39,055 nucleotides of DNA from Opitutales bacterium. Lineage in GTDB: Bacteria; Verrucomicrobiota; Verrucomicrobiia; Opitutales; Oceanipulchritudinaceae. Position numbers and translations under genes: made by a program. The notes under the pieces were generated by a model, which had not been told where the DNA came from, did no database searches, and was given only the letters and a program-made list of their open reading frames with translations. This document shows, in pieces, positions 6,933 through 26,488 of this stretch; the first letter of the stretch is position 1; each line of letters starts with the position of its first letter. Location of the stretch: positions 1 through 39,055 of the forward strand of contig JAFIGE010000035.1 in the NCBI GenBank assembly GCA_020831585.1. The letters are read 5' to 3'.

Positions 6933-6995
6933 CATTTCCTAAATCTCCGACCCACCCGATGCGCAGAGACAGAGTATGGAATACCCCTGTTTTTT

Positions 6996-8601: not shown

Positions 8602-8617
8602 AAGTGGATTTCTTCCA

Positions 8618-9109: not shown

Positions 9110-9174
9110 AAACCTGGTCGGGGGGACGATGGTATTTCTTGGGTTCCGTCCCGATGGTAACGAAGATCTGCTAA
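9106..9174 (+). pseudogene. 22-codon frame, possibly the start of a lost gene
   Basis: ATG at 9106 overlaps the GNAT stop by ATGA, the same coupling used by the genes upstream. The reading MKTWSGGRWYFLGSVP then stops at 9172-9174. It begins MKT like the DUF2306 gene at 7990 but is not otherwise alike. It may be the 5' stub of a gene removed by deletion, or simply chance. No family is recognised. Confidence 0.25.
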
Positions 9175-9211
9175 CGGATCTCGAAATTCCGGAAAGCAAG
9201 ATGGATAGGGT

Positions 9212-9229
9212 CTCCCCCAATCGGGGGAG
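9212..9229. other. Perfect 7-bp hairpin after the GNAT cluster
   Basis: CTCCCCC and GGGGGAG pair perfectly around the loop AATC. No T-run follows on the plus strand, so it is not a classical intrinsic terminator. It may still end the GNAT/DUF2306 operon or structure the leader of the next gene, whose ATG is 60 bases downstream. Confidence 0.45.
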
Positions 9230-9288
9230 GGGCGCTTCACGCGAAAGGCGGGCTGGGCGAACGCTGGGAGTTCCGGTATATTTTGGGA

Positions 9289-10227
9289 ATGCCCACGCAC
9301 ACACCGCACAATCCCACCGAAATAACGCCCTCCGATCTCCACCGGATTCTGGATACGCCCACGACCCCCGTAATTTTGGACGTGCTCACGCCGGAAGCTC
9401 ACGCGGAAGCCAGATTGCCTGGATCCATCAACGCCTGCGTGTATGCCGTCGCTTTCGCCGAGCAAGTCCTCTCCCTCATCGCCGACCAGGCCACGCCGAT
9501 TGTGGTCTATGGTCAAAGCGACGAGACGGCCGAAGCCGAACAGGCCGCGCAACGGCTGCGCTCCTTTGGATACACCCATGTCACCCGCCTTTCCGGAGGG
9601 CTCACCGCTTGGAAAGCGGCCGGTCTTCCGGTCAAAGGATCTTCAACGGACCAGCCGCTCCCACCCGCCGGCACCTTCCCCGTCGACGTGGCCTCCAGCA
9701 CAATTCTCTGGACCGGGCGCAACCGCTTCAATCACCACACGGGCACGCTCGCCCTGGGTTCGGGATCGCTGACGATGGAAGACGGTCAGCCAACCGCTGC
9801 CGCCTTCACCATCGACATGCGCAGCATCGCTTGCACCGACATCCGCGATGCCGCTGCCAACGCCGGTCTCGTCGCCCACTTGCTCGCCGACGACTTCTTT
9901 GCTGTCGACCGCTTTCCGGAAGCAAAGTTTGTCCTCACCAAAGCCCGTCCCCTTCTTTCGAGCACCGACGGCACACCCACGCATCACCTGAAGGGGGACT
10001 TCACCCTGCGGGGCATCACCGCTCCCATCGAATTCGACGCCACCCTCGACCCCCGACCCGAAGGCGGCTGGGGGGCGCAAGCCCTTTTCGCCATCGACCG
10101 GACGCGCTGGAATGTGCGCTACGGTTCGGGTCGCTTCTTCGCCCGCCTCGGCCAGCACCTCGTGAGCGACCACATCCACCTGCACCTCAAGATATTCACG
10201 AAAGCGCAGCCGCTGCGGCACGATTGA
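9289..10227 (+). CDS. Rhodanese-like / YceI fusion protein
   Basis: A 312-residue two-domain protein from ATG 9289 (a TTG two codons upstream is possible). Residues about 8-115 form a rhodanese fold, with VILDVLTPEAHAEARLPGSI and the C-terminal SGGLTAWKAAGLPV. The active-site loop reads VVYGQSDETAEAEQAA, so Gly stands where the persulfide-forming Cys normally is, and sulfurtransferase activity is unlikely. Residues about 130-312 are a YceI-like lipid-binding barrel: TILWTGRNRFNHHTGTL, MRSIACTDI, then FTLRGITAPIEFDATL. No signal peptide is seen, unlike secreted YceI. The N-terminal domain may be a partner-binding module; function is unknown. Confidence 0.83.
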   Translation: MPTHTPHNPTEITPSDLHRILDTPTTPVILDVLTPEAHAEARLPGSINACVYAVAFAEQVLSLIADQATPIVVYGQSDETAEAEQAAQRLRSFGYTHVTRLSGGLTAWKAAGLPVKGSSTDQPLPPAGTFPVDVASSTILWTGRNRFNHHTGTLALGSGSLTMEDGQPTAAAFTIDMRSIACTDIRDAAANAGLVAHLLADDFFAVDRFPEAKFVLTKARPLLSSTDGTPTHHLKGDFTLRGITAPIEFDATLDPRPEGGWGAQALFAIDRTRWNVRYGSGRFFARLGQHLVSDHIHLHLKIFTKAQPLRHD

Positions 10228-10653
10228 CGGGCTTATCTCCCTTTCGCCTTCGACCGAAGTTGGCGACATCAACCTGATGTAAAGGAATGGATGAGTAGAG
10301 CGGGTGCCTCGCTCGCATTTTCCACTGCGATTTGAGCTTGTCCATTGATTCCCTATTCGGCTTTGTCAAATAAAGGCGATCGATTTACCAACCTTTATTT
10401 AAAAAAACCGAAAGGGCCGCTCTCATTAGATGACACCGCTCAATTTGCTTAGTCAGTTGAAGAACCCCGATGGGTCCCCGGCCCTGTGTCGGACCCCCGG
10501 GGCCTTGCCGGGTGCCCCTCCGGGAGAGGCTGGCTTTCTCATTGGCGGCGAGCGGTGTGAACGGATTCGCAACGAGCGAAAGCGGGACCGCTTCCCGGTG
10601 GCGTTTGCAGTCGACATTGTCACGGTAAATCCGATTCCTCAGGAACTCTCAGC
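10228..10653. other. Intergenic region before hsdM
   Basis: This 426-base stretch separates the rhodanese/YceI gene from the restriction locus. It has an AT-rich core (about 10345-10410) containing a 9-bp inverted repeat, annotated separately, then a GC-rich part. A weak -35-like TTGATT occurs at 10345, but no convincing -10 goes with it. A 75-codon frame (10430-10657) ends by ATGA on the hsdM start; its translation is rich in Pro, Gly and Arg and resembles no family, so it is listed only as doubtful. Confidence 0.5.
10368..10400. promoter_or_regulatory. 9-bp inverted repeat in the hsdM control region
   Basis: AAATAAAGG (10368-10376) and CCTTTATTT (10392-10400) are perfect inverted repeats 15 bases apart. 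This is a candidate operator for the defence operon. The left arm with its flanks, TCAAATAAAGGCGAT, resembles TCAAATAAGGTGAT on the minus strand just before hsdR. Confidence 0.45.
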
Positions 10654-10657
10654 ATGA
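10430..10657 (+). CDS. Doubtful 75-aa frame coupled to hsdM
   Basis: This frame is open for 75 codons and ends at the hsdM start with an ATGA overlap, as seen at many junctions in this locus; that is the only argument for it. The translation (MTPLNLLSQLKNPDGSP, then a Pro/Gly-rich and an Arg-rich part) has no recognisable domain. It could be a leader peptide, or chance in GC-rich DNA. Confidence 0.22.
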   Translation: MTPLNLLSQLKNPDGSPALCRTPGALPGAPPGEAGFLIGGERCERIRNERKRDRFPVAFAVDIVTVNPIPQELSA

Positions 10658-12804
10658 CCACCGAATCCCACACGCAAATTGCCAATTTCATCTGGAGCAT
10701 CTGCAACCTACTCCGGGGGCCTTACAAGCGGAACGAGTATCGCAAGGTCATCCTGCCCCTCACTGTCCTCCGGCGCTTTGACTGCATCCTTGCACCGACC
10801 AAACCAGCGGTGCTGAGGGAGCACGCCGAAATCAAGGCCAAGGGCGAAAACATCATCCGCCACCGTCTTTCCCAGATCACCGGCGTTCCCTTCTATAACC
10901 TCTCCAAACTAACGATCGGTGCACCTAGTCAGGGCGGTGGCCTCAACGGAGTCCTGGACGATCCGAACAACCTCGCCCCGGCCCTTAACAGCTACATCAA
11001 TGGCTTCTCGCCCAATGTGCGGGGCATCATGGAGCGCTTCAAGTTCGGCGAACAGATCGCCTACATGGCCGAGAAGGACTTGCTTTATCTGGTCATCAAG
11101 GCCTTCGCGAGCATCGACCTTTCGCCTCAACGCGTGGACGAAATGCAGATGGGCTACGTCTTCGAGGAACTCATCCGAATCGGTGCGGAACAGTCGAATG
11201 AAGAAGCCGGGGAGCACTTTACTCCGCGCGAAGTGATCAAGCTCATGGTGAACCTGCTCCTCTCCCCGGAAAAGGATCTCGCCCGCAGCCACGTCGTCAA
11301 AACCATCTACGATCCCGCCTGTGGCACGGGTGGCATGCTCTCGGTGGCGGAAAACTACATTCGCCAGCTCAACGCTGAGGCCCAACCAAAGCTATTCGGC
11401 CAGGATTGGAACGACGAAGCCTGGGCCGTTTGCAAGTCCGACATGCTCATCAAGGGCGAGGAGGCCGATAATATCATACTCGGCGACACCTTTACCCGAG
11501 ATGGCTTCGACCGAGACAGCCAGGGAAACAAGTGGAAGTTCGATTACATGCTCGCCAACCCTCCCTTCGGCGTGGAGTGGAAGCAGCAGCAAAAATACAT
11601 CGAAAACGAAAAGGATACCCTCGGCTTCAGCGGGCGCTTCGGAGCAGGCACCCCGCGCGTAAATGACGGGGCTCTGCTCTTCCTCCAGCACATGATCGAC
11701 AAGATGCGCGCCCCGCAGGATGGCGGCAGCCGGATCGCCATTGTTTTCAACGGCTCCCCGCTCTTCACCGGGGATGCGGGCGGGGGCGAGAGTGAAATCC
11801 GCCGCTGGATCATCGAAAACGACTGGCTGGAAGCCATCGTCGCCCTGCCCGAACAGCTTTTCTACAACACCGGCATCTCCACCTATCTTTGGGTGCTCAC
11901 AAACCGTAAAGACGCGGAACGAAAGGGTAAGGTACAGCTCATCGACGCCCGCCAGTTCTGGGTGCAAATGGAGAAAAGCCTCGGAAACAAGCGTCGCCGC
12001 ATAGGCGACCCCGGCGACAAGCCGAAGGACCCCGACCACATCGGCGACCTTACCCGCATCTTCGGCAATTTCACCGGCGGCGAAACCCGCGTCTTCAAGG
12101 AGAAGCACCCGATCACCAAAGAACTTGTGGATCGCGAACGCGTCGTCAGCAAAGTCTTCGACAACGAAGATTTCGGCTACCACAAGATCACCGTCGAGCG
12201 CCCGCTCCGGCTCAACTTTCAGGCAAGCGCCGAACGCATCGCCCTTATCGACGACAACACCCCGTTCAAAAATCTCGCCACAAGCAAGAAGAAGGACCCG
12301 GAAAAACGCATCGCTGAAATCGAAGCGGGCAAAGCGCGGCAGCAGCAGATCCGCGACCTGCTTAAAGCCCTCGGCGAGACCACTGGCGGAAAGCTTTTTA
12401 AGGACCGCAAAACCTTCCTCCTGACCCTCCGGGATCTCGACCGGAAGCGCGGCGTCCGCCTAAGCGCTCCAGAGTTGAAGGCCGTTCTCGCCGCTCTCGG
12501 CGAGCGCGACGAATCCGCCGAAATCTGCACCAAGCGCGACGGAGAACACGAGCCGGACACCGACCTGCGCGACACCGAGATGGTTCCGCTCAAGGAAAGC
12601 ATCCACGGGTATTTCAAACGCGAGGTCCTGCCCCACGTTCCCGACGCCTGGATCGACGGAGAGAAAACAAAGATCGGCTACGAAATCCCCCTCAACCGCC
12701 ACTTCTATCAATACGAGCCCCCGCGTGAGCTGGAGGTGATTTCCGCTGACATCCGCGCCCTCGAAGCCGATATTCTAAAACTGCTTAAAGAAGTAACCGC
12801 ATGA
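10654..12804 (+). CDS. hsdM: Type I restriction-modification DNA methyltransferase subunit
   Basis: A 716-residue N6-adenine methyltransferase that pairs with HsdS to modify DNA and with HsdR to restrict it. Residues about 5-140 are the HsdM N-terminal helical domain (ANFIWSICNLLRGPYKRNEY). The catalytic domain starts with GEHFTPREVIKLMV. The AdoMet motif DPACGTGGML begins at residue 220 and the catalytic motif IV NPPF at 302. At 716 residues it is longer than classical HsdM (about 500-550); the extra sequence is a Lys/Arg/Glu-rich C-terminal extension. Its stop overlaps the next start by ATGA (12801). The hsdS partner is 6.3 kb downstream and hsdR 16 kb downstream, an unusually stretched locus. 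Confidence 0.95.
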   Translation: MTTESHTQIANFIWSICNLLRGPYKRNEYRKVILPLTVLRRFDCILAPTKPAVLREHAEIKAKGENIIRHRLSQITGVPFYNLSKLTIGAPSQGGGLNGVLDDPNNLAPALNSYINGFSPNVRGIMERFKFGEQIAYMAEKDLLYLVIKAFASIDLSPQRVDEMQMGYVFEELIRIGAEQSNEEAGEHFTPREVIKLMVNLLLSPEKDLARSHVVKTIYDPACGTGGMLSVAENYIRQLNAEAQPKLFGQDWNDEAWAVCKSDMLIKGEEADNIILGDTFTRDGFDRDSQGNKWKFDYMLANPPFGVEWKQQQKYIENEKDTLGFSGRFGAGTPRVNDGALLFLQHMIDKMRAPQDGGSRIAIVFNGSPLFTGDAGGGESEIRRWIIENDWLEAIVALPEQLFYNTGISTYLWVLTNRKDAERKGKVQLIDARQFWVQMEKSLGNKRRRIGDPGDKPKDPDHIGDLTRIFGNFTGGETRVFKEKHPITKELVDRERVVSKVFDNEDFGYHKITVERPLRLNFQASAERIALIDDNTPFKNLATSKKKDPEKRIAEIEAGKARQQQIRDLLKALGETTGGKLFKDRKTFLLTLRDLDRKRGVRLSAPELKAVLAALGERDESAEICTKRDGEHEPDTDLRDTEMVPLKESIHGYFKREVLPHVPDAWIDGEKTKIGYEIPLNRHFYQYEPPRELEVISADIRALEADILKLLKEVTA

Positions 12805-13928
12805 GTGATCCCATTCCATTTCTGGCACCCCGCTTGGTCGGTGAACGCTTCAAGGGTCATGCTGTGCCTTTGGAGGTGCTTAAAGATCTCGCCGCTTTGG
12901 ACGAGATCATCAAGGTGACCGCGAAATGGAAGTTTCTCCTCGCCCATCCGGATCGCAAGCGGGTGCCCCGTGGTTTCACGGAGGAAATCTCCCTCCGCGT
13001 CATTGACATTGAGCCGGGCAGCGCGATCCCAAAGATTATGCTCTTTGCCCTTGGAGGTCAGTTATTCTCGCCGCACCAGACTTACTTCGAAGATGCCCGA
13101 GACAGTGTGCTCTCCGCCATTGAAGCAGCCGCACACGGCGGCACCATCACCGAGCATCTGCCGGAGTCCATTTTACCCCATTTCGATCCACTCGGGCGCA
13201 GCCTGCGTGAGGATGAAGCAATTGAATTTCGCCCGTCGGATGCCGAGCATCCGGCCCGTCTCGACAAGACGGTCCGGCGAAAGCTCCTCCTGGCCTCATC
13301 CCAAACGCAAGAATATACAGATGAGGTCGTTTTGCGCGGCACCATCCCCGCCGCCGACCAGGAACGCCGCACCTTTGAACTTCAATTGATCAACGGCCAA
13401 AAAATCCCCGGCCCGATGGAAGCCTACCATTGGGAGACCCTCCTCGAGGCATTTAACGGATTTCGTGATAACGTCCGCGTTTCAATCAGCGGCATCGCAC
13501 AATTTTCCCGGGCGAACAAGCTCCAGCGGATCGAGACGATAGAAGAAATCAACTTCCTGGAGGCGAATGACGTTTTGGCGCGCATCGATGAACTCCGCAC
13601 CTTGAAAGACGGCTGGTTGGACGGGAAAGGACGGGCCCCTGCCTCCGAGGGCTTGGACTGGTTTGCCCACGAGTTCAGCCTCCGATACCCGCAGGCGCTC
13701 TCGCTACCGTATGTCTATCCCACTGGTGAAGGCGGCTTGCAGCTTGAGTGGAGTCATGCCCCCTACGAGACCTCCCTCGAAATCGACCTGGCCACCCGCG
13801 CCGCCGAGTGGCACAGCGTCCATTTGGAAAGAGGCAAAGAATTCAGCGAAAATCTCAACCTCGGCGAAGCCACAGGCTGGGAGACCCTGGCCGCGAAACT
13901 CAAGGAACAGGGAGCGCAGCAAGCATGA
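12801..13928 (+). CDS. Uncharacterised type I-associated protein (375 aa)
   Basis: A 375-residue soluble protein coupled by ATGA both to hsdM and to the next gene. No enzyme motif is recognised. The first 230 residues look like mixed alpha/beta with a central segment about DNVRVSISGIAQFSR. The C-terminal 100 residues have a recognisable pattern: a Gly/Trp turn (LKDGWLDGKGRAPASEGLD), a helix, then PTGEGGLQLEWSH and a strand with LEIDLATRAAEW. I recall this arrangement from small proteins in toxin-antitoxin-like and defence contexts, but cannot name the family. Position inside the hsd unit suggests an accessory or immunity role; this is inference. Confidence 0.75.
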   Translation: MSDPIPFLAPRLVGERFKGHAVPLEVLKDLAALDEIIKVTAKWKFLLAHPDRKRVPRGFTEEISLRVIDIEPGSAIPKIMLFALGGQLFSPHQTYFEDARDSVLSAIEAAAHGGTITEHLPESILPHFDPLGRSLREDEAIEFRPSDAEHPARLDKTVRRKLLLASSQTQEYTDEVVLRGTIPAADQERRTFELQLINGQKIPGPMEAYHWETLLEAFNGFRDNVRVSISGIAQFSRANKLQRIETIEEINFLEANDVLARIDELRTLKDGWLDGKGRAPASEGLDWFAHEFSLRYPQALSLPYVYPTGEGGLQLEWSHAPYETSLEIDLATRAAEWHSVHLERGKEFSENLNLGEATGWETLAAKLKEQGAQQA

Positions 13929-14299
13929 ACGAAGCCACCCTCCTTCTCCGCCAGATCCACCCGGCGTTTGTCCAGGACGGGCGGATCACGTCCCAGGCTT
14001 TCCGCCCAACGCCCAAAGATCAATGCCAGCTCTCCGTTTACGACGGCGACCTGATCGATGGCGAAAAGGCGTGGATACACTACACCGAAGAACTGGCATT
14101 GCAATCCGTCGGTGTGCAGGCAGTCAGCTACACCGAATGCACCGAAATGGAGCTCTCCGTGCACAGCGATCCTGCAACGTTCCCGGAGCACGCCCTCATT
14201 GATTTCACCGGGCTTGGAAAAAAGACGATCGAGAAAAAAGCCAAACACCTGCGCTCGAAAGCGGAGCATCGCGGCTGGCTCTTCACCGCCAACCCTTAA
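13925..14299 (+). CDS. Uncharacterised small protein (124 aa)
   Basis: A 124-residue protein whose start is set by the ATGA overlap at 13925; the frame upstream lies wholly inside the preceding gene. The sequence opens LLLRQIHPAFVQDGRITSQAF and has the block LSVYDGDLIDGEKAWIHYTE, then an EC-containing strand (TECTEMELSV), FPEHALIDFTGL and a basic helix (KKTIEKKAKHLRSKA). This looks like a conserved compact family, and I have the impression of relatives next to other defence genes, but I cannot name it. No catalytic motif is visible. It may be a regulatory or adaptor subunit of the hsdM/helicase unit. Confidence 0.75.
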   Translation: MNEATLLLRQIHPAFVQDGRITSQAFRPTPKDQCQLSVYDGDLIDGEKAWIHYTEELALQSVGVQAVSYTECTEMELSVHSDPATFPEHALIDFTGLGKKTIEKKAKHLRSKAEHRGWLFTANP

Positions 14300-14313: not shown

Positions 14314-14406
14314 ATGAACTTCCGACCCTACCCAAAATACAAACCCGACGGTGGCATCAACTCCGCCGCCATCGCAGATCTGATCAAGATCATCAAGGGA
14401 TCATGA
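14314..14406 (+). pseudogene. 30-codon frame resembling a truncated hsdS 5' end
   Basis: ATG 14314 opens MNFRPYPKYKPDGG, close to the real HsdS start MKPYPKYKPSG at 19118. At DNA level TACCCAAAATACAAACCC is identical in both. The likeness ends after about 12 codons, and the frame stops in an ATGA overlap with the helicase gene at 14403. It is most easily read as the stub left when the helicase gene entered, or recombined at, an hsdS start. It may now serve translational coupling. Confidence 0.5.
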
Positions 14407-17400
14407 AGGAGCTTCTCGAAAATCTGAACGCCAGCCGTCTGGCCGCCTATCGCGCTTGCCCGCGCGATATTCTGGAGCACGCCGGAAAGGAAGAATCCGT
14501 CTCTGCGGGCGGCTACGGCTACCGGCAGATTCTTGAGCTGGTTCAGAATGGAGCGGACGCGATCCTCGAAGCCCAGCAAAATAGCATTCCCGATCCCCAC
14601 TCCCGCATCGAAGTGCGCCTGACCGATTCGCACGTGTATGTGGCCAACACCGGCGCGCCCCTATCGGAACAAGGCTTGGAAGCCTTACTGAGTTCGGACC
14701 TTTCCCCAAAACGCGGAAATCAAATTGGCCGTTTTGGCCTTGGATTCAAATCCCTCCTCCGCCTCGGTGGGGTGATCGATCTCTTCACCCGCGCAAATGG
14801 AAACATTCGCTTTGATCCGGAAAGATGCTGCCGCGAGTTACGTGACGCATTCAGCACCTCGAAGGCCCCCGGTCTTCGTTTGGCGTGGCCGCTTGACATT
14901 ACGGCCCGGGCTGCGGATCCCGTACTCGAATCCCTGGCATGGGCGGAAACGGTTGTGCGCGCCGAAGTTTGCGCTCCCGGGCTACGTGAGCACCTCGATA
15001 CCGAGATTCGGGAGTTCCCGCGAGAGTTTCTGCTCTTTCTCGATCACCCCGTCGAATTGAAGCTCGCCACCCGAACAGCCGAACCGGTGGTCCTGCGGGT
15101 TGAGCATCAGAACGACATAAAGATCCTCCATTCCGGGGCGGAGCAAACGCGCTGGCGGGTTTTCTCCCGTGAGGTCACGATGGAAGATCAGGACGCCGCC
15201 ATTGATGCCACTTCTATCCACGCACGGAAAATTGTGCCGCTGGCTTGGGCCACCCCTCTGGACACCAAACGCGAGGAAGCCGGGCGTTTCTGGGCCTTCT
15301 TCCCAACGCACACGCCCACCTATTTGCAGGGCATTCTCAACGCCCCCTGGAAGCTGAACAGTGATCGCAACTCACTTGTGCGGGGCGAGTGGAATACGGC
15401 TCTTATGCGGGCGGCGGCGGAGTTGGTCGTTGAGCGGTTGCCGACACTCTCGACTCCCGACGATCCGGGACGCCTCCTCGACGCGTTCCCTCGCCAGCCC
15501 GAGCGGCAGGACGACGACGCCGTCCCCATGATCAATGCGATTTGGCAGGCATTGATGGAGGCCGAGATTCTCCCCGATGCGGCCGGGACGTTGCGCAGCC
15601 CAAAGCACCTCCTACGCCCACCGCGCGATGACCGGTCTCTTGCCGAACAATGGCAGTCTCTGTCTCCACCTGAGGGCAAGGCTAGGGTTGTGCATGCCTC
15701 CTGCCTCGAGCGCCTGCGCAGCAGCCGCCTCAATGCGCTGGCCGATCGTTTACGGCCAAAAGAGTTGCAATGGAATGAAGTGCCGCCCCTCTCCCGCGCA
15801 GGCGCAGCCGGGTGGTTCGCGGTGGTCGCCTCAAGCGACACTCCAAAGGCACTGAAGGTTCTCCGACTAGCCGAAGCCTTTCACGAAGCTTGCTCGGGGC
15901 AGGAATGGAGCAAAACGCAAGCTTCACTTCGCATTATCCCAACGGAGGACGGCGGGTTGGCCACTTCCGGCGAGGTCGTCATTGTTCCCCAAGGGACCCA
16001 CACACCGGAAGGGCGAAAGGCCGTCGCGTCATCCCTCGCGGCCACAGCCGAAGGTCGGCGGATATTGGCGGAAATCTTTCACGTCGGTGGCCTGGACGAT
16101 GGGAACTGGAGAAAGATCCTCACGGAATCACTGCCCGACTACCGATTTTCCAATGGGTGGGAGGAATTCTGGACCAATCTCCGCTCCGCACCCGAACATG
16201 TCGCCCAGCGTTTTATCGCTGACAAACGAGCTGGAATTTGTGTGCGTGCACGCAGTGGTTCTTGGAAGGGCAACCACGAGGTTCTGCTCCCGGGAGAGAT
16301 CGTTCGTGAAGATGATACGACCCAAAATTCAAAAGTCTTGGTCCACGCGGAAACCCACGCTTTGGATCATGACCGTCTGACCAAGATTGGGGTCGCAGAT
16401 TGTCCGTCCCTCACCGAAGAAGAAGGTGTTTTTGATGGGTTGACCGAGTGGCTCGGTTTTTGGCGGAAGCATTTTCGGTCGAACAACAATCAAGGCCGCC
16501 GCCCGCAAGCCAAGTGCCTAAATCCACAAGGATTATCCCTGCCCATCGCAACCCGCTTTCTTTCTCAGATCACCGGACCAGCCAATGCCCGGCTTACGTT
16601 TAAGCTCCTTCCGTTGCTAGACAACTGCCCCCAAACCTGCTCCTTCGGGCACGACACATCGCATGCCTATCCAAAAATCGATGTCCCCCATCCACTCCCC
16701 TGGCTCCTTCTTCGCCACGGAACAGTAATGGTGGGCGGAATGTCCGTTCAACTTCGAGCGTATGTCCACCGCGCCGCTCAATGCACATCGGCACTCTCAG
16801 CGGTGCCGAATCTTCTGCCCCCCCTATCCGCGTCAGCCATCGAGCGCCTGAGGGCGCACACGGAACCTCCCTGCGCACCGCCCACGGAAGAAATCCGAGG
16901 CTTTTGGCGGACTTGTATTCGAGCTGTCAGCACGCCTGACCGACTGAAAGACGACGGCCTCTCCCCTCTCTGGTCAGCCGCCGCGCGGGATGATGTCGTG
17001 CCGGAGGCATTTCTCACGGCGTCCGGTGAGGTTCCGCTCTCCGCTGTCTTCGTAACCAGCTCACCCGACCTTGCCCGGCGTGTTCGCAATCCGGATCGAA
17101 TCGTGATCACGCTCGATGAGCACGCGCTCCACCTTTGGCAAACAGAGGGAGCGCGCCCCTTGGCCGATCTTGTCAAACCGGAGTGGGACGGCGTCACCGG
17201 ACCCGATCTCCTGCTTCTCGATGCCATTCCCGAACTGGCCCCGGTGCTGACAAATCAAGCGAGTATTGAGGCACGCTGTCAGCCGGTGGATGGCCTGTGT
17301 CTCGTTGTTGGCGAGGGCCGCGACGCGCTTCCCTGCCTGATGTGGGAGGACCGGCTGCTTCTCGATCTGGTTGGACTCCGCACACTCCCGCGCCACGACC

Positions 17401-19121
17401 GCTTTGCTTCGCTCCTCCGCGAACTCGCCTCGGCAGGATGGCTCACCGTATCCATGGAAGAGGCGCTGCGCATCATCGCTGACGCAACGGTGGAAGCTCA
17501 ACGGGCCGCCGTGGCCGCCGCGCCTGATCTGCCCGCCCGCCTCCTGGCTGCGGTCGAGGAGCGCCCGGAACCTTTGCGGGCCGCGCTGGGCGGCTTGGCC
17601 AACCAGCCCTTCGTCCAGGGTTCGACTCTCCGGCAACTGGCTGAACTGGTCCTCGCCCACCACGGCCCCGCCACGCTCTCTCATTTACGGGATGCCCTCG
17701 AAGAATCGGGTTTGCAGCCGCCGCGCCGCTGGAACACGGCCGAAGCACGGACTTTTGTCACCGCAATCGGTTTTCCCGAAAGTTTCGCCGATGCGTCCGC
17801 CGCCCGCCGCGAACCCGAGGAATGGATCACCGGCCCTATTGAGCTTCCACCCCTGCATGACTTCCAGGAGGAAGTCTTTGACGGTGTGCGCAGCCTCCTC
17901 GCTTCCGCCGAAAATCGCCGCCGGGCCGTGGTGAGCCTTCCCACCGGCGGCGGCAAGACCCGGGTGACCGTGGAGGCTGCCGTCAGGCTTGTCCTCGCTC
18001 CTCCCGGCGGACGCCGCAGCGTCATCTGGATTGCTCAAAGCGACGAGCTATGCGAACAGGCAGTGCAGGCTTTCCGTCAGGTCTGGCTCAATCTCGGTGC
18101 CCAACGAACGGAGCTGCGCATCGTCCGCTTATGGGGAGGCAATCCCAACCCCGCCCCACAGGAGACCGATAAACCCCTGGTCATTGTTGCGTCGATACAG
18201 ACCCTGAATGCCCGGATGGGTGGGGCGGCCCTCGAATGGCTTCAGCAACCAGGCTTGGTCGTCGTGGATGAATGTCACCACGCCATCACCCCGTCCTACA
18301 CCAATCTGCTTCGCTGGCTCGATGCCGAGGCTCGCCCCGCCGGAGCGCCCCCCCGCGACGAGCCGCCCATCCTCGGTCTCAGCGCCACCCCTTTTCGGAT
18401 GGACGACGACGAAAGCCGCCGTCTCGCCGCCCGATTTGGCAAGATCTGGTTGCCGGGCGATCAGGCCGACCTCCACCATCGCCTCCGGACCCAGGGCGTC
18501 CTTGCGGAAATCGACAGCGAAGCGCTTCGCTCCCGAGCCAGTCTCACCGATGAGGAGACGAGCCAGTTTGATCGCCACCGTGAGCAGATGGACGGTCTCG
18601 ACTTCGAACGTATGCTGGAAGCCCTCAATCAGCGGCTTGCCGGGGTCGAAGAGCGCAATCAGCAAATTCTGGAGTGCGTGCAACAAGCTCCCCAGCGCTC
18701 CATTCTCCTTTTCGCCAATTCCATCGACCACGCCACCGAACTCTCTGCCCGCCTGAACCTGCTCGGCATTCCCTCGGCTTCCATCAGTGGCGACACGCCA
18801 CGGGTTTCCCGACGCTACTTTCTCGAAAAATTCCAGCGGGGCGATTTGCGCGTCCTCTGCAACCACAGCGTGCTCAGCACTGGTTTTGACGCCCCCCGCA
18901 CCGACATGCTTCTCATCGCCCGGCAAATCTTTAGCCCGGTCCGCTATATGCAGATCGTGGGTCGCGGCCTGCGCGGCGAGAAAAACGGCGGCACCCCCCG
19001 GTGCCGCATTGTCACCGTCCTCGACAATCTCGGGCGCTTTCAGGACCGCCATCCCTACCACTACTGCGCCGATTACTTCCGGGCCTTGAATGCAGAGGCA
19101 ACCGAATCGCTGTCCGCATGA
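14403..19121 (+). CDS. Sacsin/HSP90-like ATPase fused to SF2 helicase
   Basis: A very large (1572-residue) two-ATPase protein. The start is the ATGA-coupled ATG at 14403. The N-terminus is a GHKL (sacsin/HSP90-like) nucleotide-binding domain: ELVQNGADAI at about 45-54 supplies the Asn/Asp of the N box, VANTGAPL follows, and IGRFGLGFKS near 108-117 is the Gly-rich lid. Residues about 250-1150 are unrecognised. The C-terminus is an SF2 helicase: Walker A SLPTGGGKT near 1180, DECHH near 1288, LSATPFRM, and motif VI QIVGRGLRG near 1517. It is not HsdR, which is separate at 28862, and has no visible nuclease motif. Coupling to hsdS by ATGA suggests a shared complex or shared regulation. Exact function unknown. 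Confidence 0.85.
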   Translation: MKELLENLNASRLAAYRACPRDILEHAGKEESVSAGGYGYRQILELVQNGADAILEAQQNSIPDPHSRIEVRLTDSHVYVANTGAPLSEQGLEALLSSDLSPKRGNQIGRFGLGFKSLLRLGGVIDLFTRANGNIRFDPERCCRELRDAFSTSKAPGLRLAWPLDITARAADPVLESLAWAETVVRAEVCAPGLREHLDTEIREFPREFLLFLDHPVELKLATRTAEPVVLRVEHQNDIKILHSGAEQTRWRVFSREVTMEDQDAAIDATSIHARKIVPLAWATPLDTKREEAGRFWAFFPTHTPTYLQGILNAPWKLNSDRNSLVRGEWNTALMRAAAELVVERLPTLSTPDDPGRLLDAFPRQPERQDDDAVPMINAIWQALMEAEILPDAAGTLRSPKHLLRPPRDDRSLAEQWQSLSPPEGKARVVHASCLERLRSSRLNALADRLRPKELQWNEVPPLSRAGAAGWFAVVASSDTPKALKVLRLAEAFHEACSGQEWSKTQASLRIIPTEDGGLATSGEVVIVPQGTHTPEGRKAVASSLAATAEGRRILAEIFHVGGLDDGNWRKILTESLPDYRFSNGWEEFWTNLRSAPEHVAQRFIADKRAGICVRARSGSWKGNHEVLLPGEIVREDDTTQNSKVLVHAETHALDHDRLTKIGVADCPSLTEEEGVFDGLTEWLGFWRKHFRSNNNQGRRPQAKCLNPQGLSLPIATRFLSQITGPANARLTFKLLPLLDNCPQTCSFGHDTSHAYPKIDVPHPLPWLLLRHGTVMVGGMSVQLRAYVHRAAQCTSALSAVPNLLPPLSASAIERLRAHTEPPCAPPTEEIRGFWRTCIRAVSTPDRLKDDGLSPLWSAAARDDVVPEAFLTASGEVPLSAVFVTSSPDLARRVRNPDRIVITLDEHALHLWQTEGARPLADLVKPEWDGVTGPDLLLLDAIPELAPVLTNQASIEARCQPVDGLCLVVGEGRDALPCLMWEDRLLLDLVGLRTLPRHDRFASLLRELASAGWLTVSMEEALRIIADATVEAQRAAVAAAPDLPARLLAAVEERPEPLRAALGGLANQPFVQGSTLRQLAELVLAHHGPATLSHLRDALEESGLQPPRRWNTAEARTFVTAIGFPESFADASAARREPEEWITGPIELPPLHDFQEEVFDGVRSLLASAENRRRAVVSLPTGGGKTRVTVEAAVRLVLAPPGGRRSVIWIAQSDELCEQAVQAFRQVWLNLGAQRTELRIVRLWGGNPNPAPQETDKPLVIVASIQTLNARMGGAALEWLQQPGLVVVDECHHAITPSYTNLLRWLDAEARPAGAPPRDEPPILGLSATPFRMDDDESRRLAARFGKIWLPGDQADLHHRLRTQGVLAEIDSEALRSRASLTDEETSQFDRHREQMDGLDFERMLEALNQRLAGVEERNQQILECVQQAPQRSILLFANSIDHATELSARLNLLGIPSASISGDTPRVSRRYFLEKFQRGDLRVLCNHSVLSTGFDAPRTDMLLIARQIFSPVRYMQIVGRGLRGEKNGGTPRCRIVTVLDNLGRFQDRHPYHYCADYFRALNAEATESLSA

Positions 19122-20446
19122 AGCCTTACCCAAAATACAAACCCTCCGGCGTCGAATGGCTCGGCGACGTGCCGGAGCATTGGGAGGTGAAGCGGTTGAA
19201 ATATTCGGTGAGTATCAATGATGAAGCCCTCCCCGAAACAACACCTCCTGATGCGGAGTTGGAATATGTTGATATTGGAAGCGTGAATGCCACCGATGGC
19301 ATCACGGCTACCGAAACCATCTTATTCGAAAACGCTCCATCAAGAGCAAGACGCAAAGTCCAGCATGGGGATACCATCGTTTCGACGGTCCGAACCTATC
19401 TTCGCGCGATTACTCCCGTCATCAATCCTCCACAAAACCTGATCGTCTCAACTGGATTTGCTGTTGTTAGACCACGAAACGTGCAACCAGCCTTTCTCGG
19501 ATATGCGCTTCGAGAGGCATCTTTCGTAGAGTCTGTAGTGTCGCGCTCCACTGGCGTCAGTTATCCGGCGGTAAATGCGTCGGACGTTGGACGCATTGAA
19601 ATTCCGTTACCGAAGCCCGAGGCAGAACAAACCGCCATCGCCATCTATCTCGAACGTGAGACCGGCCGCATCGACGAGTTGGTAGGCAAGAAGCGCGAAT
19701 TGATCGAGCGGCTGAAGGAGAAGCGCAACGCGCTCATCTCCCGCACCGTCACCCGAGGCCTCCCGGCCGACCTTCCCCCCGAAACCCTCGCTCAACTGGA
19801 GCAAATCGCCGGAGAAAAACTCTCTCTCAATCCTTTCCTCAAGCCGTCAGGGACCGAGTGGTTGGGCGAGGTGCCGGACCATTGGGAGGTGTGGAAGCAC
19901 GCTCACCTATTTGCCTCTTCGATGGGCCAAACAATATTAAAAGAAGAAGTGACTGACTCCGGACTCATACCAGTTTTGTCTGCGACCGAAGAATATGAGG
20001 TATTCGGCTATCTTGACTCCGCATCAGTGATTCTAAATCCTGGCGATTTGGTAGTTCCAGCACGGGGAAATTCAATTGGGCATGTAAAATTGGTTCGCGA
20101 GCGTAGCACAACAACCCAGACAACGATATACTCCAAGCATTTGACCAATAAAGTTGATCCAAGCTTTGCATTCTATTTCTTATTGGGTCATCGAAAGACA
20201 TTGTTCCACTTTGATCGGACCGCAATTCCACAACTGACCGTAAAACAAGTTTCAACGAATCCGTTTCTACTCCCACCTCTCCCCGAACAACGCGCCATCG
20301 CCGCCTACCTCGACGAGGAAACCTCCAGACTCGACGCCCTTGTCGCCAAAGTCGAAAGCGCCATCGAGCGCCTCCAGGAATACCGCAGCGCCCTCATCAC
20401 CGCCGCTGTGACGGGGAAAGTTGATGTTCGCGAACAAACCCTATGA
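19118..20446 (+). CDS. hsdS: Type I restriction-modification specificity subunit
   Basis: A 442-residue specificity subunit that binds the bipartite target and holds HsdM and HsdR. It has two similar halves, each opening with a KPSG(V/T)EWLG(D/E)VP block (residues about 8 and 246) and ending in a helical conserved region: AIYLERETGRIDELVGKKRELIE near 200 and AAYLDEETSRLDALVAKVE near 400. Between lie two unlike target-recognition domains, both visibly AT-richer than the surroundings (about 19200-19460 and 19910-20270), as expected when TRDs are exchanged. The start overlaps the helicase stop by ATGA, and the stop overlaps the next start. The last 154 bases or so are copied at 24342-24495. Confidence 0.94.
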   Translation: MKPYPKYKPSGVEWLGDVPEHWEVKRLKYSVSINDEALPETTPPDAELEYVDIGSVNATDGITATETILFENAPSRARRKVQHGDTIVSTVRTYLRAITPVINPPQNLIVSTGFAVVRPRNVQPAFLGYALREASFVESVVSRSTGVSYPAVNASDVGRIEIPLPKPEAEQTAIAIYLERETGRIDELVGKKRELIERLKEKRNALISRTVTRGLPADLPPETLAQLEQIAGEKLSLNPFLKPSGTEWLGEVPDHWEVWKHAHLFASSMGQTILKEEVTDSGLIPVLSATEEYEVFGYLDSASVILNPGDLVVPARGNSIGHVKLVRERSTTTQTTIYSKHLTNKVDPSFAFYFLLGHRKTLFHFDRTAIPQLTVKQVSTNPFLLPPLPEQRAIAAYLDEETSRLDALVAKVESAIERLQEYRSALITAAVTGKVDVREQTL

Positions 20447-22170
20447 AAGCGGACGCGATCTATTTCCGTCGTCATCGCTGCTTCAAGAACGATTGGGCCG
20501 GCTTTGATACGATCAAACCGATCAACGTCATAATCGGCAGGAATAACTCTGGGAAATCGCACCTTCTCGATCTCGTGGAGGGTATGTCTTCCGGAAACCT
20601 GAAAGGGCGCGGATGGAGCCTTAAGCTCTATGGTGTTTTAGATGAAAACTCCTTAAAGCAGGTGTTCCGCGAGGGTACCTCGGGGGGTGAAATGAGGGGC
20701 TCTTGGTGGATTGAACATGGAAAACACTTTATTGACGTTAATGTCGATTGGGAAACGGATGAAAATCTAAATCCCAAAAGCCTGAATTTTCCTCCCGATT
20801 TCGATTTTGAATCACGCTACGGACGGCGCTCCACCGACGCTCGGATATCGGAAATAAAAAACCTCATTAGAAATGCGACCTATCCGCTGTCGGGCACATT
20901 GTTTCGCCGCCTACTGGCCGACCGTGACATCAAACCGGAAAGTCCAAACCTTCAACTCCTTCTCGCGCCCGATGGCACGGGTGCGTCCAACATCATCCGC
21001 CGCTACATCGTAACGGCCAACCCCAAATATCCCCGTGAACTCATTCAGAGGGATTTGCTCACGGCCCTGAACAAAATTTTTGGAAGCGACGGACAGTTCA
21101 CGGAGATTCAAGTGAAGATCCACGATGATTCCAAAACGGGGATACCAGAGGGGTACTGGGAGGTTTACCTGGGAGAAGAGAAAAAAGGTCTGATCCCGCT
21201 GAGCAACTCGGGAAGCGGACTGAAAACCGTTTTCCTCGTTCTGTTGAATCTCCTCGTTGTGCCGAGGATCGAGGAAAAAAAACCATCTGACTTCACCTTC
21301 GCGTTTGAAGAGCTTGAAAACAACCTCCACCCGGCCCTCCTTCGCAGGCTCTTTCAGTACTTGGAGGAGTATGCGGTCAAGGAAAGTGCGCCGGTTTTTC
21401 TGACCACCCATTCGAGCACGGCGCTGGATCTCTTTGGGGTTTCCGAAAATACCCAAATTATCCATGTCACGCACGATGGCGATTCCGCCCGCGCGACTAC
21501 TGTCTCCGCGCACTTTGATCACCTCGGCGTCATCTCCGAGTTGGGGGCCAAACCCTCTGACCTGTTGCAAGCAAACGGCATCATTTGGGTCGAAGGCCCT
21601 TCAGACTGCATTTACATCAACCGGTGGATAGACCTTTTCAGCGAAGGGGAACTTCAGGAAGGCCGCGACTACCAATGTGCGTTTTACGGTGGGTCCCTTC
21701 TCGCCCGAACACAGTTTAAGTCTCCGGAGGAAGCGGAGAAAGAGGTGGTCAACCTTTTTCGCGTTAACCCGAACATCGTCGTTGTTTGCGATGGGGACCG
21801 GACAGCCAAAGGCAAACGGGTTAAGGACCGGGTGCGGCGAATTCGTGCTCAGGTGAACCAAATTCCCGGTGCCCACATTTGGGTGACGGAGGCAAGGGAG
21901 ATCGAAAACTACATTCCCGGTGAAGTCCTCACAAAAGCGGTTGGGACCGCCAGCCTGCCTGACCCAATGCAATACGAAGCCTTCTTCCCCCGAAAAGGAT
22001 CGCCCGGCAGTTCCTACATCGAATCCCGGATAGGGCGAAAGGGTTTCGATAAAATGGATTTGGCCATCCTTTGCGTTCCCTCCATGGAGACGCCGATGAT
22101 GAGCAGGCGCTTTGAGTGGGAGGCACAGATGAAAAAAATCGTTGAACGCATCAACGCCTGGAATCGATAA
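20443..22170 (+). CDS. OLD-family-like ATPase/TOPRIM protein (575 aa)
   Basis: A 575-residue protein with an ABC-type AAA ATPase and a C-terminal TOPRIM nuclease-like domain, the layout of OLD proteins such as GajA of Gabija. Walker A is GRNNSGKS at residues 32-39. The ABC signature-like stretch LSNSGSGLKTVFLVLLN precedes Walker B FAFEELENNLHP (near 290), and LTTHSS is the switch His region. TOPRIM acidic motifs are WVEGPSD near 382 and VVCDGDRT near 446, with EARGIE-like EAREIENYIP after. It is coupled to hsdS by ATGA, so it is probably part of the hsd unit. No UvrD-type GajB partner is present. DNA cleavage is likely but unproven. Confidence 0.85.
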   Translation: MKADAIYFRRHRCFKNDWAGFDTIKPINVIIGRNNSGKSHLLDLVEGMSSGNLKGRGWSLKLYGVLDENSLKQVFREGTSGGEMRGSWWIEHGKHFIDVNVDWETDENLNPKSLNFPPDFDFESRYGRRSTDARISEIKNLIRNATYPLSGTLFRRLLADRDIKPESPNLQLLLAPDGTGASNIIRRYIVTANPKYPRELIQRDLLTALNKIFGSDGQFTEIQVKIHDDSKTGIPEGYWEVYLGEEKKGLIPLSNSGSGLKTVFLVLLNLLVVPRIEEKKPSDFTFAFEELENNLHPALLRRLFQYLEEYAVKESAPVFLTTHSSTALDLFGVSENTQIIHVTHDGDSARATTVSAHFDHLGVISELGAKPSDLLQANGIIWVEGPSDCIYINRWIDLFSEGELQEGRDYQCAFYGGSLLARTQFKSPEEAEKEVVNLFRVNPNIVVVCDGDRTAKGKRVKDRVRRIRAQVNQIPGAHIWVTEAREIENYIPGEVLTKAVGTASLPDPMQYEAFFPRKGSPGSSYIESRIGRKGFDKMDLAILCVPSMETPMMSRRFEWEAQMKKIVERINAWNR

Positions 22171-22349: not shown

Positions 22350-24143
22350 ATGCGCCTCCTCCACTACATCGAAATCCAAAACTTCAAACGCTTCGGAGAT
22401 CGTCAGCGGCTCGAACTGGATCATCCAGCGGTTTTGATCGGGCCGAACAATTGCGGAAAGACGAGTGCCATTCAAGCCGTCGCCCTCTGGTCTCAGGCGG
22501 TGAAAACCTGGTACGATGCCCGGCGCGATTCCACGGCGAAGGAGCGTCCTTCGGTGTCGCTCAATCGCTTGAATATCGTGGCGGTTCCGGTGCAACGAAC
22601 GCGGTTCTTTTGGCATAACTCCAGGATACAGGGAACACCACTTCTGTTGACGGCCGGGGTTGAGTTCAAGGGCGAGGTGAGGCCCTTGACAATGAAGTTT
22701 ATCCACCGCGGCGACGAGGTGATCTACTGCTCCCCCGATGATTCCGGGATGGCGAGCTTGGATTTGGTGGAGCATGCTGCCAGTATCAATGTGGAGTTGC
22801 TTTATCCAATGTCCGGCCTGGAGACCGAGGAGCCAATTTTGCAACCGGGTCGCATCGATGTGCTTCTCGGGCAGGGGCAGACCGCACAAGTCTTGCGAAA
22901 CTTGTGCCTGATGGTTTGGAAAAGTTCTTCAAAAGACTGGAAGCGAGTCGTTTTCTTGATGAAACGATTGTTTCATGTTGAACTTGGAACCCCCCAGGAG
23001 ACGTCGCGGGGCGGCATCGAACTGCACTATCGCCAACCAGGCGTAAAGGACGCCCTCGACGTCGCCTTATCCGGACGGGGCTTCCAGCAAATGTTGCTGA
23101 TTTTTGCCTATTTGTTTTCCCATAAAAGAAGCGTTTTGCTCGTGGACGAGCCCGATGCACATCTGGAGATTTTGCGTCAGAAGCAGGTTTATGTTCTCCT
23201 CAGGGACATTGCCACGGAGAATCTATCGCAAGTCGTAATCGTCACTCATTCCGAGGTGATTTTGGATGAGGCGCTCGATACAAACCTTACGCTTCTCATT
23301 GAAGGAACGGCGGATAATCTGGCGAGAAAGTCGGACATTCGAAACAGCCTCAAGCACTTTGGTGCGGCTCACTATGTGAAAGCTCGCGCGCGGGGATATG
23401 TCTTTTATGTGGAAGGCGGCACAGACATCGACATGCTTCGCGCATTGGCCGAGAAAATTGACCATCCCTTGAAAGACGAGTGGGATGAACGTATCAACTC
23501 ATTTTATGTTCAAAACAACTATCCGGAAACGACCGCGGACAGTGAGCTTGAGCGGGTAGAGGGAGGATTTGGAGTGACGCCACATAAGCACTTCCACGGC
23601 TTGCGGGAGCTGTTGCCCAATCTTAAGGGTTTAGCTATATTGGACAATGATGGTCGCGGTCGCGCGAACGCAGAGAATGGGGCTTTGAAGGTATTATATT
23701 GGCAACGTTACGAGGCAGAAAACTACTTCATCACCCCAGATTTGCTGCGGCGCTATGCGCTTGCGCAGTATCAGGGAATGGAGCTGTTCGACAGTTTCGG
23801 GCCTCAGATCAACGAAGTATTGGATCAGCTGACACTAGAGCAGGTTTTCGGAGGGAATCTTGCGGATTTTAAGACATGGAAAGAATCTCCGCCCGACGCA
23901 GCTCGAATTGTTTGGGAAGCAAAGACAGAACGATTAAAATTGAGCACATTCGCGGAGGCATTTTTCAGAAATTTAGCGACAAAAGTTCAAGATCAAATGT
24001 TGCTACGAAAGGGCGAGTTGCATCGCTTGATTACAATGACCGATGCAAAGACAATTTCAGATGAAGTGAGGTCAAAACTCGATGAGCTGAGAATTCTATT
24101 CGCCGCCAGCAAAAAGCACGAAGAGGTTCCCCGGAATGAATAA
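22350..24143 (+). CDS. Second OLD-like AAA ATPase/TOPRIM protein (597 aa)
   Basis: A 597-residue AAA ATPase distinct from its neighbour at 20443. It opens HYIEIQNFKRFG, the standard start of AAA_15/OLD ATPases. Walker A GPNNCGKT is at 31-38, the signature-like SGRGFQQMLLIFAYL precedes Walker B VLLVDEPDAHLE near 265, and VIVTHSEVIL follows. A TOPRIM-like part has FYVEGGTDID near 352 and LAILDNDGRGRAN near 430, then the helix-rich WQRYEAENYFITPDLL. Sequence likeness to the upstream OLD protein is confined to motifs, so this is a separate acquisition rather than a recent duplicate. The last 250 bases are AT-richer. Confidence 0.85.
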   Translation: MRLLHYIEIQNFKRFGDRQRLELDHPAVLIGPNNCGKTSAIQAVALWSQAVKTWYDARRDSTAKERPSVSLNRLNIVAVPVQRTRFFWHNSRIQGTPLLLTAGVEFKGEVRPLTMKFIHRGDEVIYCSPDDSGMASLDLVEHAASINVELLYPMSGLETEEPILQPGRIDVLLGQGQTAQVLRNLCLMVWKSSSKDWKRVVFLMKRLFHVELGTPQETSRGGIELHYRQPGVKDALDVALSGRGFQQMLLIFAYLFSHKRSVLLVDEPDAHLEILRQKQVYVLLRDIATENLSQVVIVTHSEVILDEALDTNLTLLIEGTADNLARKSDIRNSLKHFGAAHYVKARARGYVFYVEGGTDIDMLRALAEKIDHPLKDEWDERINSFYVQNNYPETTADSELERVEGGFGVTPHKHFHGLRELLPNLKGLAILDNDGRGRANAENGALKVLYWQRYEAENYFITPDLLRRYALAQYQGMELFDSFGPQINEVLDQLTLEQVFGGNLADFKTWKESPPDAARIVWEAKTERLKLSTFAEAFFRNLATKVQDQMLLRKGELHRLITMTDAKTISDEVRSKLDELRILFAASKKHEEVPRNE

Positions 24144-24175
24144 TCGGCTCCCATGACAAATTCCTAACTCCCCCC

Positions 24176-24544
24176 ATGAACCGGATAACTGTCAGTCCAA
24201 AAGTCCTTCGCTGGGCGCGTGAGCGCGCGGGGTTGGCGGTGGCTGACCTGGAGGACAAATTCCCGCACCTGGCGGAATGGGAGACGGAGGCAGCCCAACC
24301 CGGGATTTCGGCTGAAGCAATCAGAGCATTGAGGATTCCCGTCCCACCCCTCCCCGAACAACGCGCCATCGCCGCCTACCTCGACGAGGAAACCGCCAAG
24401 CTCGACGCCCTCGTCGCCAAAGTCGAAACCGTCATCGAACGCCTCCAGGAATACCGCAGCGCCCTCATCACCGCTGCTGTGACGGGGAAGATTGACGCAA
24501 GGAGTCCGGAAGACCTAAGATCGTTCAAGTTTCGGATAACATAA
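24176..24544 (+). pseudogene. In-frame chimera: HTH start of ImmA gene joined to hsdS tail
   Basis: The first 38 or so codons (MNRITVSPKVLRWARERAG) are a near-copy of the N-terminus of the HTH-ImmA protein at 26489. Bases 24170-24290 match 26483-26603 with about six differences. From about 24305 the protein turns into HsdS: LRIPVPPLPEQRAIAAYLDEET, and 24342-24495 match 20271-20424. The frame is intact across the junction, giving 122 residues. Either this is a recombination scar, or a small expressed protein carrying the HsdS/HsdM contact helix behind an HTH piece. The HTH is cut short, so specific DNA binding is doubtful. Confidence 0.8.
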
Positions 24545-26324: not shown

Positions 26325-26488
26325 GCCAAACGGGCGGACTACTTTTCGCTTTCATCAAAAATGAGTCTTCTGTCCATTGCTCTTGGAAACTCGGGGCGCT
26401 GGTTTTTCCTCCATAAATTTCCTCCCGGAAAGCGGAAGTTCGCGTTACCAAACTCATCACTCCTCGCTTCCGATCCAGCCTTCCCCCC

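Follow-up and report, generated by a model that had tools for sequence, protein, structure and literature searches.

A protein with a sacsin-type GHKL-fold domain at its front and a superfamily 2 (SF2) helicase at its back is encoded as a single chain on contig JAFIGE010000035.1 of an Opitutales bacterium (assembly GCA_020831585.1); the whole of this contig, 39,055 nucleotides of a 5.28-Mb genome (G000), is the window analysed here. The reading frame is open from the ATG at 14403 to the TGA at 19119–19121 and specifies 1572 amino acids. That one chain combines a GHKL domain with an SF2 helicase had been proposed in an earlier sequence-only reading of this DNA, and the proposal is borne out by a sacsin profile, by the predicted fold, by Pfam and by relatives that possess both halves. 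A role in defence is likely, and the protein probably unites in one chain the parts of an anti-phage machine of a known kind, parts that are often made by separate neighbouring genes. We tentatively favour, at somewhat less than an even chance, a 'clamp and motor' defence protein made as one chain, probably devoid of a nuclease of its own; the mechanism proposed below for it is one that we infer. The gene and its parts are laid out as follows (open reading frame, ORF; predicted local distance difference test, pLDDT).

14403–19121, forward strand: fusion gene, with sacsin-type GHKL-fold domain, middle region and SF2 helicase (ORF, Pfam, PADLOC, NCBIfam)
14403–15152, forward strand: predicted GHKL-fold (sacsin/Hsp90-type) domain, residues 1–250 (NF047352 over its cut-off at residues 41–122; predicted fold)
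14535–14561, forward strand: N-box ELVQNGADA, residues 45–53 (alignment)
14640–14663, forward strand: DxGxG place, VANTGAPL, residues 80–87, with Asn82 for Asp (alignment)
14727–14753, forward strand: lid GRFGLGFKS, residues 109–117 (alignment)
15153–15632, forward strand: transducer-like region, residues 251–410, with the conserved NAPWKLNSDR (K317, R322) (conservation, TmtA homology)
15633–16472, forward strand: residues 411–690, fast evolving, TmtA-like through 671 (hhalign, alignment)
16473–17501, forward strand: residues 691–1033, no family assigned (alignment, model, PDB sequence profile)
17502–17762, forward strand: residues 1034–1120, helical segment ahead of the helicase (model pLDDT, conservation)
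17763–19082, forward strand: SF2 helicase module, residues 1121–1560 (Pfam, hhalign, motifs I–VI)

A longer gene, starting at the in-frame ATG at 14058, was rejected because the relatives begin near 14403 and because 13925–14299 holds another small ORF.

The front half scores 57.7 bits over residues 41–122 with the NCBIfam sacsin profile NF047352 (P_loop_sacsin), the curated cut-off of which is 50, and residues 2–406 match the PADLOC models of TmtA, a defence protein that may come from the work of Payne et al. 2024 on embedded defences, with an E value of 9.9e-47. The best of these models, PDLC03964, is covered only at profile positions 10–415 of 1538 and is thus not matched as a whole. When profiles were compared with hhalign, residues 1–671 aligned with four TmtA-like proteins at a probability of 99.8% and E 2e-27. 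The sequence-only reading had made the fusion depend on whether the front folds as a GHKL domain. A model of residues 1–690, predicted from three sequences (window, L032 and L045), has a mean pLDDT of 56.5, with 10-residue blocks across 121–250 at 77–88, and it resembles Hsp90, SMCHD1 and sacsin SR1. Its best Foldseek matches are TRAP1 and Hsp90 (best E 3.8e-5), and VIA-align superposes it on the Hsp90 N-domain 3k60 with Z 13.1 (178 residues, 3.5 A), on the SMCHD1 ATPase module with Z 12.6 and on sacsin SR1 with Z 11.9. Because the predicted model matches all three, the claim of a Bergerat-type/GHKL fold stands, at the level of a predicted structure. No Pfam GHKL family is matched by the fusion protein, and HATPase_c_3 gives no match to the whole ORF (E up to 10) or to residues 1–466 (E up to 0.01); this profile does not separate MORC from TmtA-like proteins, since one TmtA-like protein (L086) scores just above its cut-off.

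The main alignment comprises seven rows, of which one (L033) is a piece without the front and another (L052) is disturbed in the N-box at a contig edge. Invariant columns make up 24.0% of residues 1–250, 25.6% of 251–410, 7.5% of 411–690, 5.8% of 691–1033, 18.4% of 1034–1120 and 31.0% of 1121–1572, and conservation peaks at both ends of the protein in these seven rows and in the five closer ones alike. At the N-box, E45 and N49 are conserved in five of the six rows with letters there, the disturbed L052 being the sixth, and the lid and the NAPWKLNSDR motif are conserved across the alignment. This conservation suggests that ATP may be used at the GHKL site; residues 251–410 may in turn play the part of a transducer.

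The assignment of the back half rests on Pfam ResIII, DEAD and Helicase_C, each of which scores above its cut-off, and on SF2 motifs I–VI, which are intact in the alignment (Walker A TGGGKT at residues 1181–1186, DECH at 1289–1292). Residues 1121–1560 align with four stand-alone helicases at a probability of 100% and E 1.5e-72 (hhalign). RadD is the top NCBIfam match, with 100.1 bits against an equivalog cut-off of 720 (NF053632), and the closest solved structure by sequence is also a RadD, 6jde (E 8.6e-23). A PbeA model matches the fusion helicase as well, with E 6.4e-17.

The full-length architecture, which the sequence-only reading had left to be checked, recurs in six other genomes or records, where both halves lie in one frame, and two partial pieces come in addition; identities with the window's protein range from about 36 to 62%.

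G040 (L003/L033): both halves, one internal TGA
G013 (L004/L035): both halves
G071 (L005): both halves
L032: both halves, on a 6.5-kb contig of a record titled as a Gammaproteobacteria metagenome-assembled genome
L045: both halves, from a viral collection, 41% identity
G393 (L052): both halves, 36% identity
G598 (L049): partial piece, helicase side at a contig end, residues 1087–1559, 52% identity
G318 (L006): partial piece, front-half fragment, residues 1–363, with two internal TAG stops

The occurrence of both halves in six relatives led us to reject chance and misassembly as explanations. In the helicase tree, which was rooted for drawing only and in which several long branches are flagged (L039 and L042 among them), all seven fusion helicases that were placed form one clade (100/99), itself within an 11-row clade (100/99) that also holds the stand-alone helicases L039–L042. 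In the front-region tree, mostly poorly resolved in its wider parts, the five fusion fronts placed likewise form one clade (100/100). The fusion is real and, judged by these trees, of single origin. It is also thinly spread: similarity at the level of the fusion was found in 5 of 384 genomes of the class, a count to which the genome of the window and the fragment in G318 both contribute. A profile of the middle alone matches 4 genomes among 387 of the phylum, one of them that of the window, and among 398 genomes of the phylum to which L032 belongs it matches 1, the genome of L032 itself.

Elsewhere the two activities are repeatedly neighbours, and in the fusion they are one chain. Matches over the sacsin-type cut-off occur in 13 of 236 genomes of the class, at 14 places, four of which are the fusion; neighbourhoods were fetched for nine of the ten others, that is, for all except the one in G101. 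All seven of the sacsin-type relatives scanned match PADLOC TmtA, five of the seven end in the nuclease-like NOV_C/DUF3883, and none has a helicase. A separate SF2/SNF2 or HsdR gene adjoins five of the nine loci (L084, L085, L087, L088 and L090). A restriction–modification (R-M) gene or one resembling those of bacteriophage exclusion (BREX) systems is also near five of the nine (L043, L085, L087, L088 and L090), the neighbours of L044, L086 and L089 having lain outside the Pfam scan: these genes are DUF1156 methyltransferase-like in L043 and L085, PglZ in L087 and HsdR in L090, and the one in L088 is known only by its similarity to the type IIG methyltransferase of the window. The TmtA matches and these neighbours agree with the defence setting that had been supposed from the sequence. 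In one genome (G158), the very long sacsin-type ORFs of L087 and L088 (2494 and 1949 amino acids) adjoin SNF2 helicase genes and appear to lie within BREX-like loci, as indicated by the PglZ gene in L087. In L084, the TmtA-like protein encoded at 4981–11709 stands beside a HEPN_Swt1–SNF2 helicase fusion, a possible RNase–helicase partner of the sacsin-type protein.

A similar arrangement is seen from the helicase side. A HATPase_c_3 GHKL gene adjoins three of the four nearest stand-alone helicases (L040, L041 and L042), which with their loci were chosen as best matches and not at random, and a phospholipase D (PLD)-like gene belongs to the group, beyond the GHKL gene in L041 and with a match just below cut-off in L042; a PAPS-reductase gene is near in L040. 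The locus of the fourth helicase, L039, contains an OLD-like AAA gene together with an HsdR that is 41% identical to that of the window.

Between its two ends the protein was said by the sequence-only reading to have some 900 residues that match nothing and that might hide a nuclease. This proved too large an estimate: the stretch without assignment shrinks to about 450 residues, because residues 1–671 align to TmtA and 1121–1560 to helicases. As for the nuclease, no signature of one was found in the middle by Pfam, by PDB profile, by conservation or in a structure model of poor quality. Pfam gives no match there at E up to 10, and a PDB sequence-profile search with the same limit returns for the middle just a ribosomal protein and KdpE, at unconvincing E values of 0.76 and 1.3. 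The model of residues 560–1165 (pLDDT 46, predicted template modelling score 0.27) is of such quality that little can be read into its structure searches, which gave no match at E <= 0.001 and a best Z of 2.5; blocks at about 1040–1129 form a fairly confident helical stretch (pLDDT 73–85). Neither NOV_C/DUF3883 (Pfam, E up to 10) nor HSDR_N (Pfam) is matched anywhere in the fusion. Residues 411–1033 contain no invariant set of the PD-(D/E)xK or a similar kind, whether in the seven rows or in the five closer ones; as a control, the NOV_C alignment of four TmtA-like proteins shows invariant D1272, E1302 and K1304. Residues 411–690 are invariant at 21.4% of positions in the five closer rows as compared with 7.5% in the seven, and in residues 691–1033 the 16 invariant polar residues of the closer rows compare with Y756 and D988 in the seven, to which only C434 and R439 are added when the whole of 411–1033 is considered. 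A scaffold or a recognition surface would be a better fit for so fast-changing a region.

In the window, the fusion gene lies within a type I restriction operon, the other elements of which are the following.

10654–12804, forward strand: HsdM, type I methyltransferase subunit (PADLOC, Pfam)
12801–13928, forward strand: PADLOC candidate PDC-M32A, ATGA overlap with hsdM
13925–14299, forward strand: 124-residue ORF, ATGA overlap with the PDC-M32A gene
14329–14346, forward strand: upstream copy of an 18-bp repeat, in an ATG-started hsdS-like stub (ATG at 14313)
19118–20446, forward strand: HsdS, overlapping the last bases of the fusion gene at ATGA (PADLOC, Pfam)
19127–19144, forward strand: downstream copy of the 18-bp repeat, in hsdS codons 4–9
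20443–22170, forward strand: AAA ATPase (AAA_15/AAA_21), AriA/GajA-like
22350–24143, forward strand: second AAA ATPase (AAA_21/AAA_15), NsnB/AriA-like
28862–31999, forward strand: HsdR, type I restriction subunit, HSDR_N and SWI2_SNF2

The gene order is hsdM, PDC-M32A, the 124-residue ORF, the fusion, hsdS, the two AAA genes, further genes and hsdR, with ATGA overlaps at 12801, 13925, 19118 and 20443; the overlap of the fusion with hsdS is 4 bp. The repeat that brackets the fusion gene is exact (blast E 1.1e-5) and was sought after the likeness of the two peptides had been noticed: the upstream stub begins MNFRPYPKYKPDG, which resembles the HsdS start MKPYPKYKPSG. The simplest reading would be that the fusion gene was inserted at the start of hsdS.

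Other traces of rearrangement are present farther along the operon. The 3′ end of hsdS is repeated directly (20271–20418 and 24342–24489; 148 bp, 93.9%), as is the start of an ImmA/IrrE-like gene (24169–24288 and 26482–26601; 120 bp, 96.7%), and the ORF at 24176–24544 is a chimera of the two. Two cargo sets, namely the AAA pair and the genes at 24575–25006 and 24999–26324, may thus have been stacked by recombination in an hsdS/ImmA-like slot. The 441-residue protein encoded at 24999–26324 belongs to no Pfam family; since a 37% identical homologue (L052, 4322–5650) is directly beside the fusion relative there, the two proteins co-occur in two distant loci. On the minus strand, 34486–38453 encodes a type IIG/PglX-like methyltransferase of 1095 amino acids, its end overlapped by a 227-residue ORF, so that the contig has a further system of restriction type. 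Over its many contigs, the genome of the window is rich in type I-like loci, with 15 matches to N6_Mtase and 17 to Methylase_S, as is G393 (14 and 20); there are one, one and four N6_Mtase matches in G013, G040 and G071, respectively, and two Methylase_S matches in each.

As regards the surroundings of the relatives, the fusion in L033 is followed downstream by genes like ZacB and like PDC-M27C/DrmD/ZacC. The viral-classed contig that holds L045 (L053, IMGVR_UViG_3300003747_000017) encodes HsdM, HsdS, a protein kinase and HsdR besides the fusion, and inspection by eye adds a transposase and a serine recombinase. This contig resembles a mobile defence island more than a plain phage. That the fusion might be a phage or plasmid gene was rejected, the plasmid and phage records giving no match to residues 380–1150 and L045, though from a viral collection, also having HsdM, HsdS and HsdR.

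The mechanism that we propose would run as follows. The sacsin-type GHKL-fold domain and the transducer-like region would form an ATP-gated clamp of the TmtA, MORC and SMCHD1 kind, probably dimeric, and closure of this clamp on foreign or aberrant DNA would license the C-terminal SF2 motor. The motor would then unwind the clamped DNA or travel along it, with the consequence that phage replication stalls or that the DNA is exposed to the nucleases of neighbours such as HsdR. The protein itself apparently has no nuclease, the motor standing where most of the relatives scanned have their NOV_C/DUF3883 end. What we infer in this scheme is the gating by ATP, the dimerization, the clamping of DNA, the sequence of events and the activity against phages, and the sensing of foreign DNA by a clamp coupled to a motor is plausible. 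The scheme as a whole is supported by the sacsin profile and fold, the homology to TmtA, the helicase equivalence, the clades, the pairs of neighbouring genes, the SF2 helicases in prokaryotic MORC neighbourhoods (PMC2292703), the position beside hsdS and the peak of conservation at both ends. It is tempting to go further and to suppose that a single fusion with a helicase gene put the motor where a TmtA-like ancestor had its nuclease end, leaving a nuclease-free immune protein that halts phages through the movement or unwinding of DNA, not through its cleavage, and that spreads partly as cargo of hsdS starts in type I operons; this fuller scenario we regard as possible, albeit doubtful.

Several observations weigh against a clamp-and-motor defence protein, and most of them lead to a rival explanation. 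The sequence-only reading had held both nucleotide sites to be intact, which is true of the helicase site; at the GHKL site, however, the DxGxG place reads NTGAP, with Asn82 instead of the canonical Asp in six of six rows, and in yeast Hsp82 the change D79N is said to abolish ATP binding. For this reason the domain is classed here as sacsin-type, and as GHKL by fold, and not as a proven canonical ATPase. The substitution might mean that the helicase alone works and that the GHKL half survives only as an inactive structural relic. We consider this the least probable of the rivals, given that residues 1–410 are well conserved (24–26% invariant in the seven rows), that the N-box, the lid and the K317/R322 motif are maintained, and that such variants are common to other sacsin-type relatives (NTG in the TmtA-like L044, L043 and L090, DDGEG in L086, further ones in others). 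A different difficulty is raised by the middle, where the five closer rows share 30 invariant polar residues in 411–1033, including His, Asp, Glu and Cys, and where the fold is a low-quality prediction only. These residues make an unfamiliar active site possible, and an unrecognised nuclease there would turn the protein into a self-contained clamp, nuclease and motor. Yet lysine is missing from the 30, which leaves no PD-(D/E)xK or HKD set, only four of these residues remain invariant once L045 and L052 are added, and the middle has neither a Pfam match nor a convincing match among PDB sequences; a hidden nuclease is accordingly improbable, if slightly less so than a dead GHKL half.

The genomic record, too, weighs in part against the favoured reading. 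L045 alone among the eight further copies and pieces is known to have type I R-M genes beside it, in a search that covered the contigs of the six relatives with both halves. The long fusion contigs of G013, G040 and G071 show no HsdS match and no complete N6_Mtase match (both are found elsewhere in these genomes, and the G071 contig has a 65-position partial N6_Mtase match about 180 kb from the fusion), and the contigs of G393 (10.4 kb) and L032 (6.5 kb) have neither. A tblastn search with residues 380–1150 gave no match among 72,556 plasmid and 50,697 phage records, and further viral scans gave no additional fusion locus. Finally, the grouping of stand-alone helicases with that of the fusion is partly by choice, since they were picked as best matches. 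The long contigs speak equally against the most credible of the rivals, according to which the protein serves the type I enzyme as an accessory: as a GHKL remodeller with a motor, it would assemble HsdR action at sites marked by HsdM/HsdS, or regulate or replace it, and would have no function alone. Such a role would suit a gene that sits between hsdM and hsdS and overlaps the latter, as well as the HsdM, HsdS and HsdR of L045 and the HsdR that adjoins the sacsin-type relative L090. Against it, the operon already has an hsdR with HSDR_N, and the 18-bp repeat suggests a later insertion at the hsdS start; on balance we deem it unlikely. Alternatively, the fusion may have no part in defence and may serve in DNA repair or replication restart, as a RadD-type protein joined to a GHKL regulator. 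RadD, which is not known to have a GHKL part, shares the SF2 helicase core and is the best match both in NCBIfam and, as 6jde, among solved structures, and the neighbours of L035 and L037/L038 do not match the R-M proteins of the window (most of them lay outside the family-library scans). But the score falls far below the RadD equivalog cut-off, the homology to TmtA and the R-M settings of relatives point elsewhere, the presence of the fusion is patchy (5 of 384 and 1 of 398 genomes in the surveys above), and two copies carry internal stops. This reading seems to us about as improbable as a hidden nuclease.

The defence protein that we favour has several partial counterparts among known systems, the PMC sources cited here being represented by excerpts. 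TmtA (PADLOC-DB 2.0, PDLC03964–PDLC03972) has the same sacsin-type GHKL-fold front, with homology over residues 1–671 and a similar length, and its relatives are often near R-M or BREX-like genes (five of nine). It differs at the other end, where five of the seven scanned have NOV_C/DUF3883, termed a novel restriction endonuclease (PMC3710099), and none has a helicase, whereas the fusion ends in an SF2 helicase and is without a NOV_C match. As both this C-terminal feature and a match to the whole TmtA profile were looked for and are absent, we do not call the fusion a member of TmtA. MORC and paraMORC R-M operons (Iyer et al. 2008, PMC2292703) likewise bring a GHKL ATPase together with an SF2 helicase in restriction loci, such helicases being present in about 70% of prokaryotic MORC neighbourhoods, and the S5 domain of MORC is described there by the motif GhXhhpXXRhl. 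In those operons, however, GHKL ATPase and helicase are separate genes, and the extras joined to the GHKL part are restriction endonuclease-fold, TIR and unknown domains. Closer in their helicases, which cluster with that of the fusion, are the gene groups of L040–L042, although there too the genes are separate, the GHKL gene is of the HATPase_c_3 type and a PLD-like gene is present. VcSduA (GHKL-Shedu; PMC12137116) does combine GHKL and effector in one chain, and its authors think that the GHKL part controls the effector, which is a PD-(D/E)xK nuclease and not, as in the fusion, a helicase. Hachiman HamAB (PMC12278908) offers a helicase as a sensor of DNA state in defence, but its partner is a nuclease subunit and the abstract mentions no GHKL domain. 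In the case of PbeABCD (PMC6459918), which counts a PLD–helicase protein among its components, virus DNA is blocked without visible cutting.

No description of a single-chain GHKL–SF2 helicase fusion was found in the open-licence PMC literature, searched mostly as titles and starts of abstracts; sacsin, Hsp90 and GHKL are not mentioned in PMC12839542 and PMC12458937, nor are sacsin, GHKL, HATPase and MORC in PMC10853773. GHKL and SF2 helicase in restriction loci were already known as separate genes (PMC2292703), and the single-chain form is apparently new. The adjacency of GHKL ATPases and SF2 helicases in such loci, on record since 2008 (PMC2292703), does not by itself show that the two interact. 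A natural and conserved single-chain fusion, on the other hand, is strong evidence that the GHKL domain and the helicase act on each other, and it provides a system of a single gene whose sites can each be mutated separately. The fusion also suggests that TmtA-like proteins can exchange their nuclease-like end for a motor. Such exchangeability would make what the Hsp90-like clamp of bacterial immunity controls directly testable.

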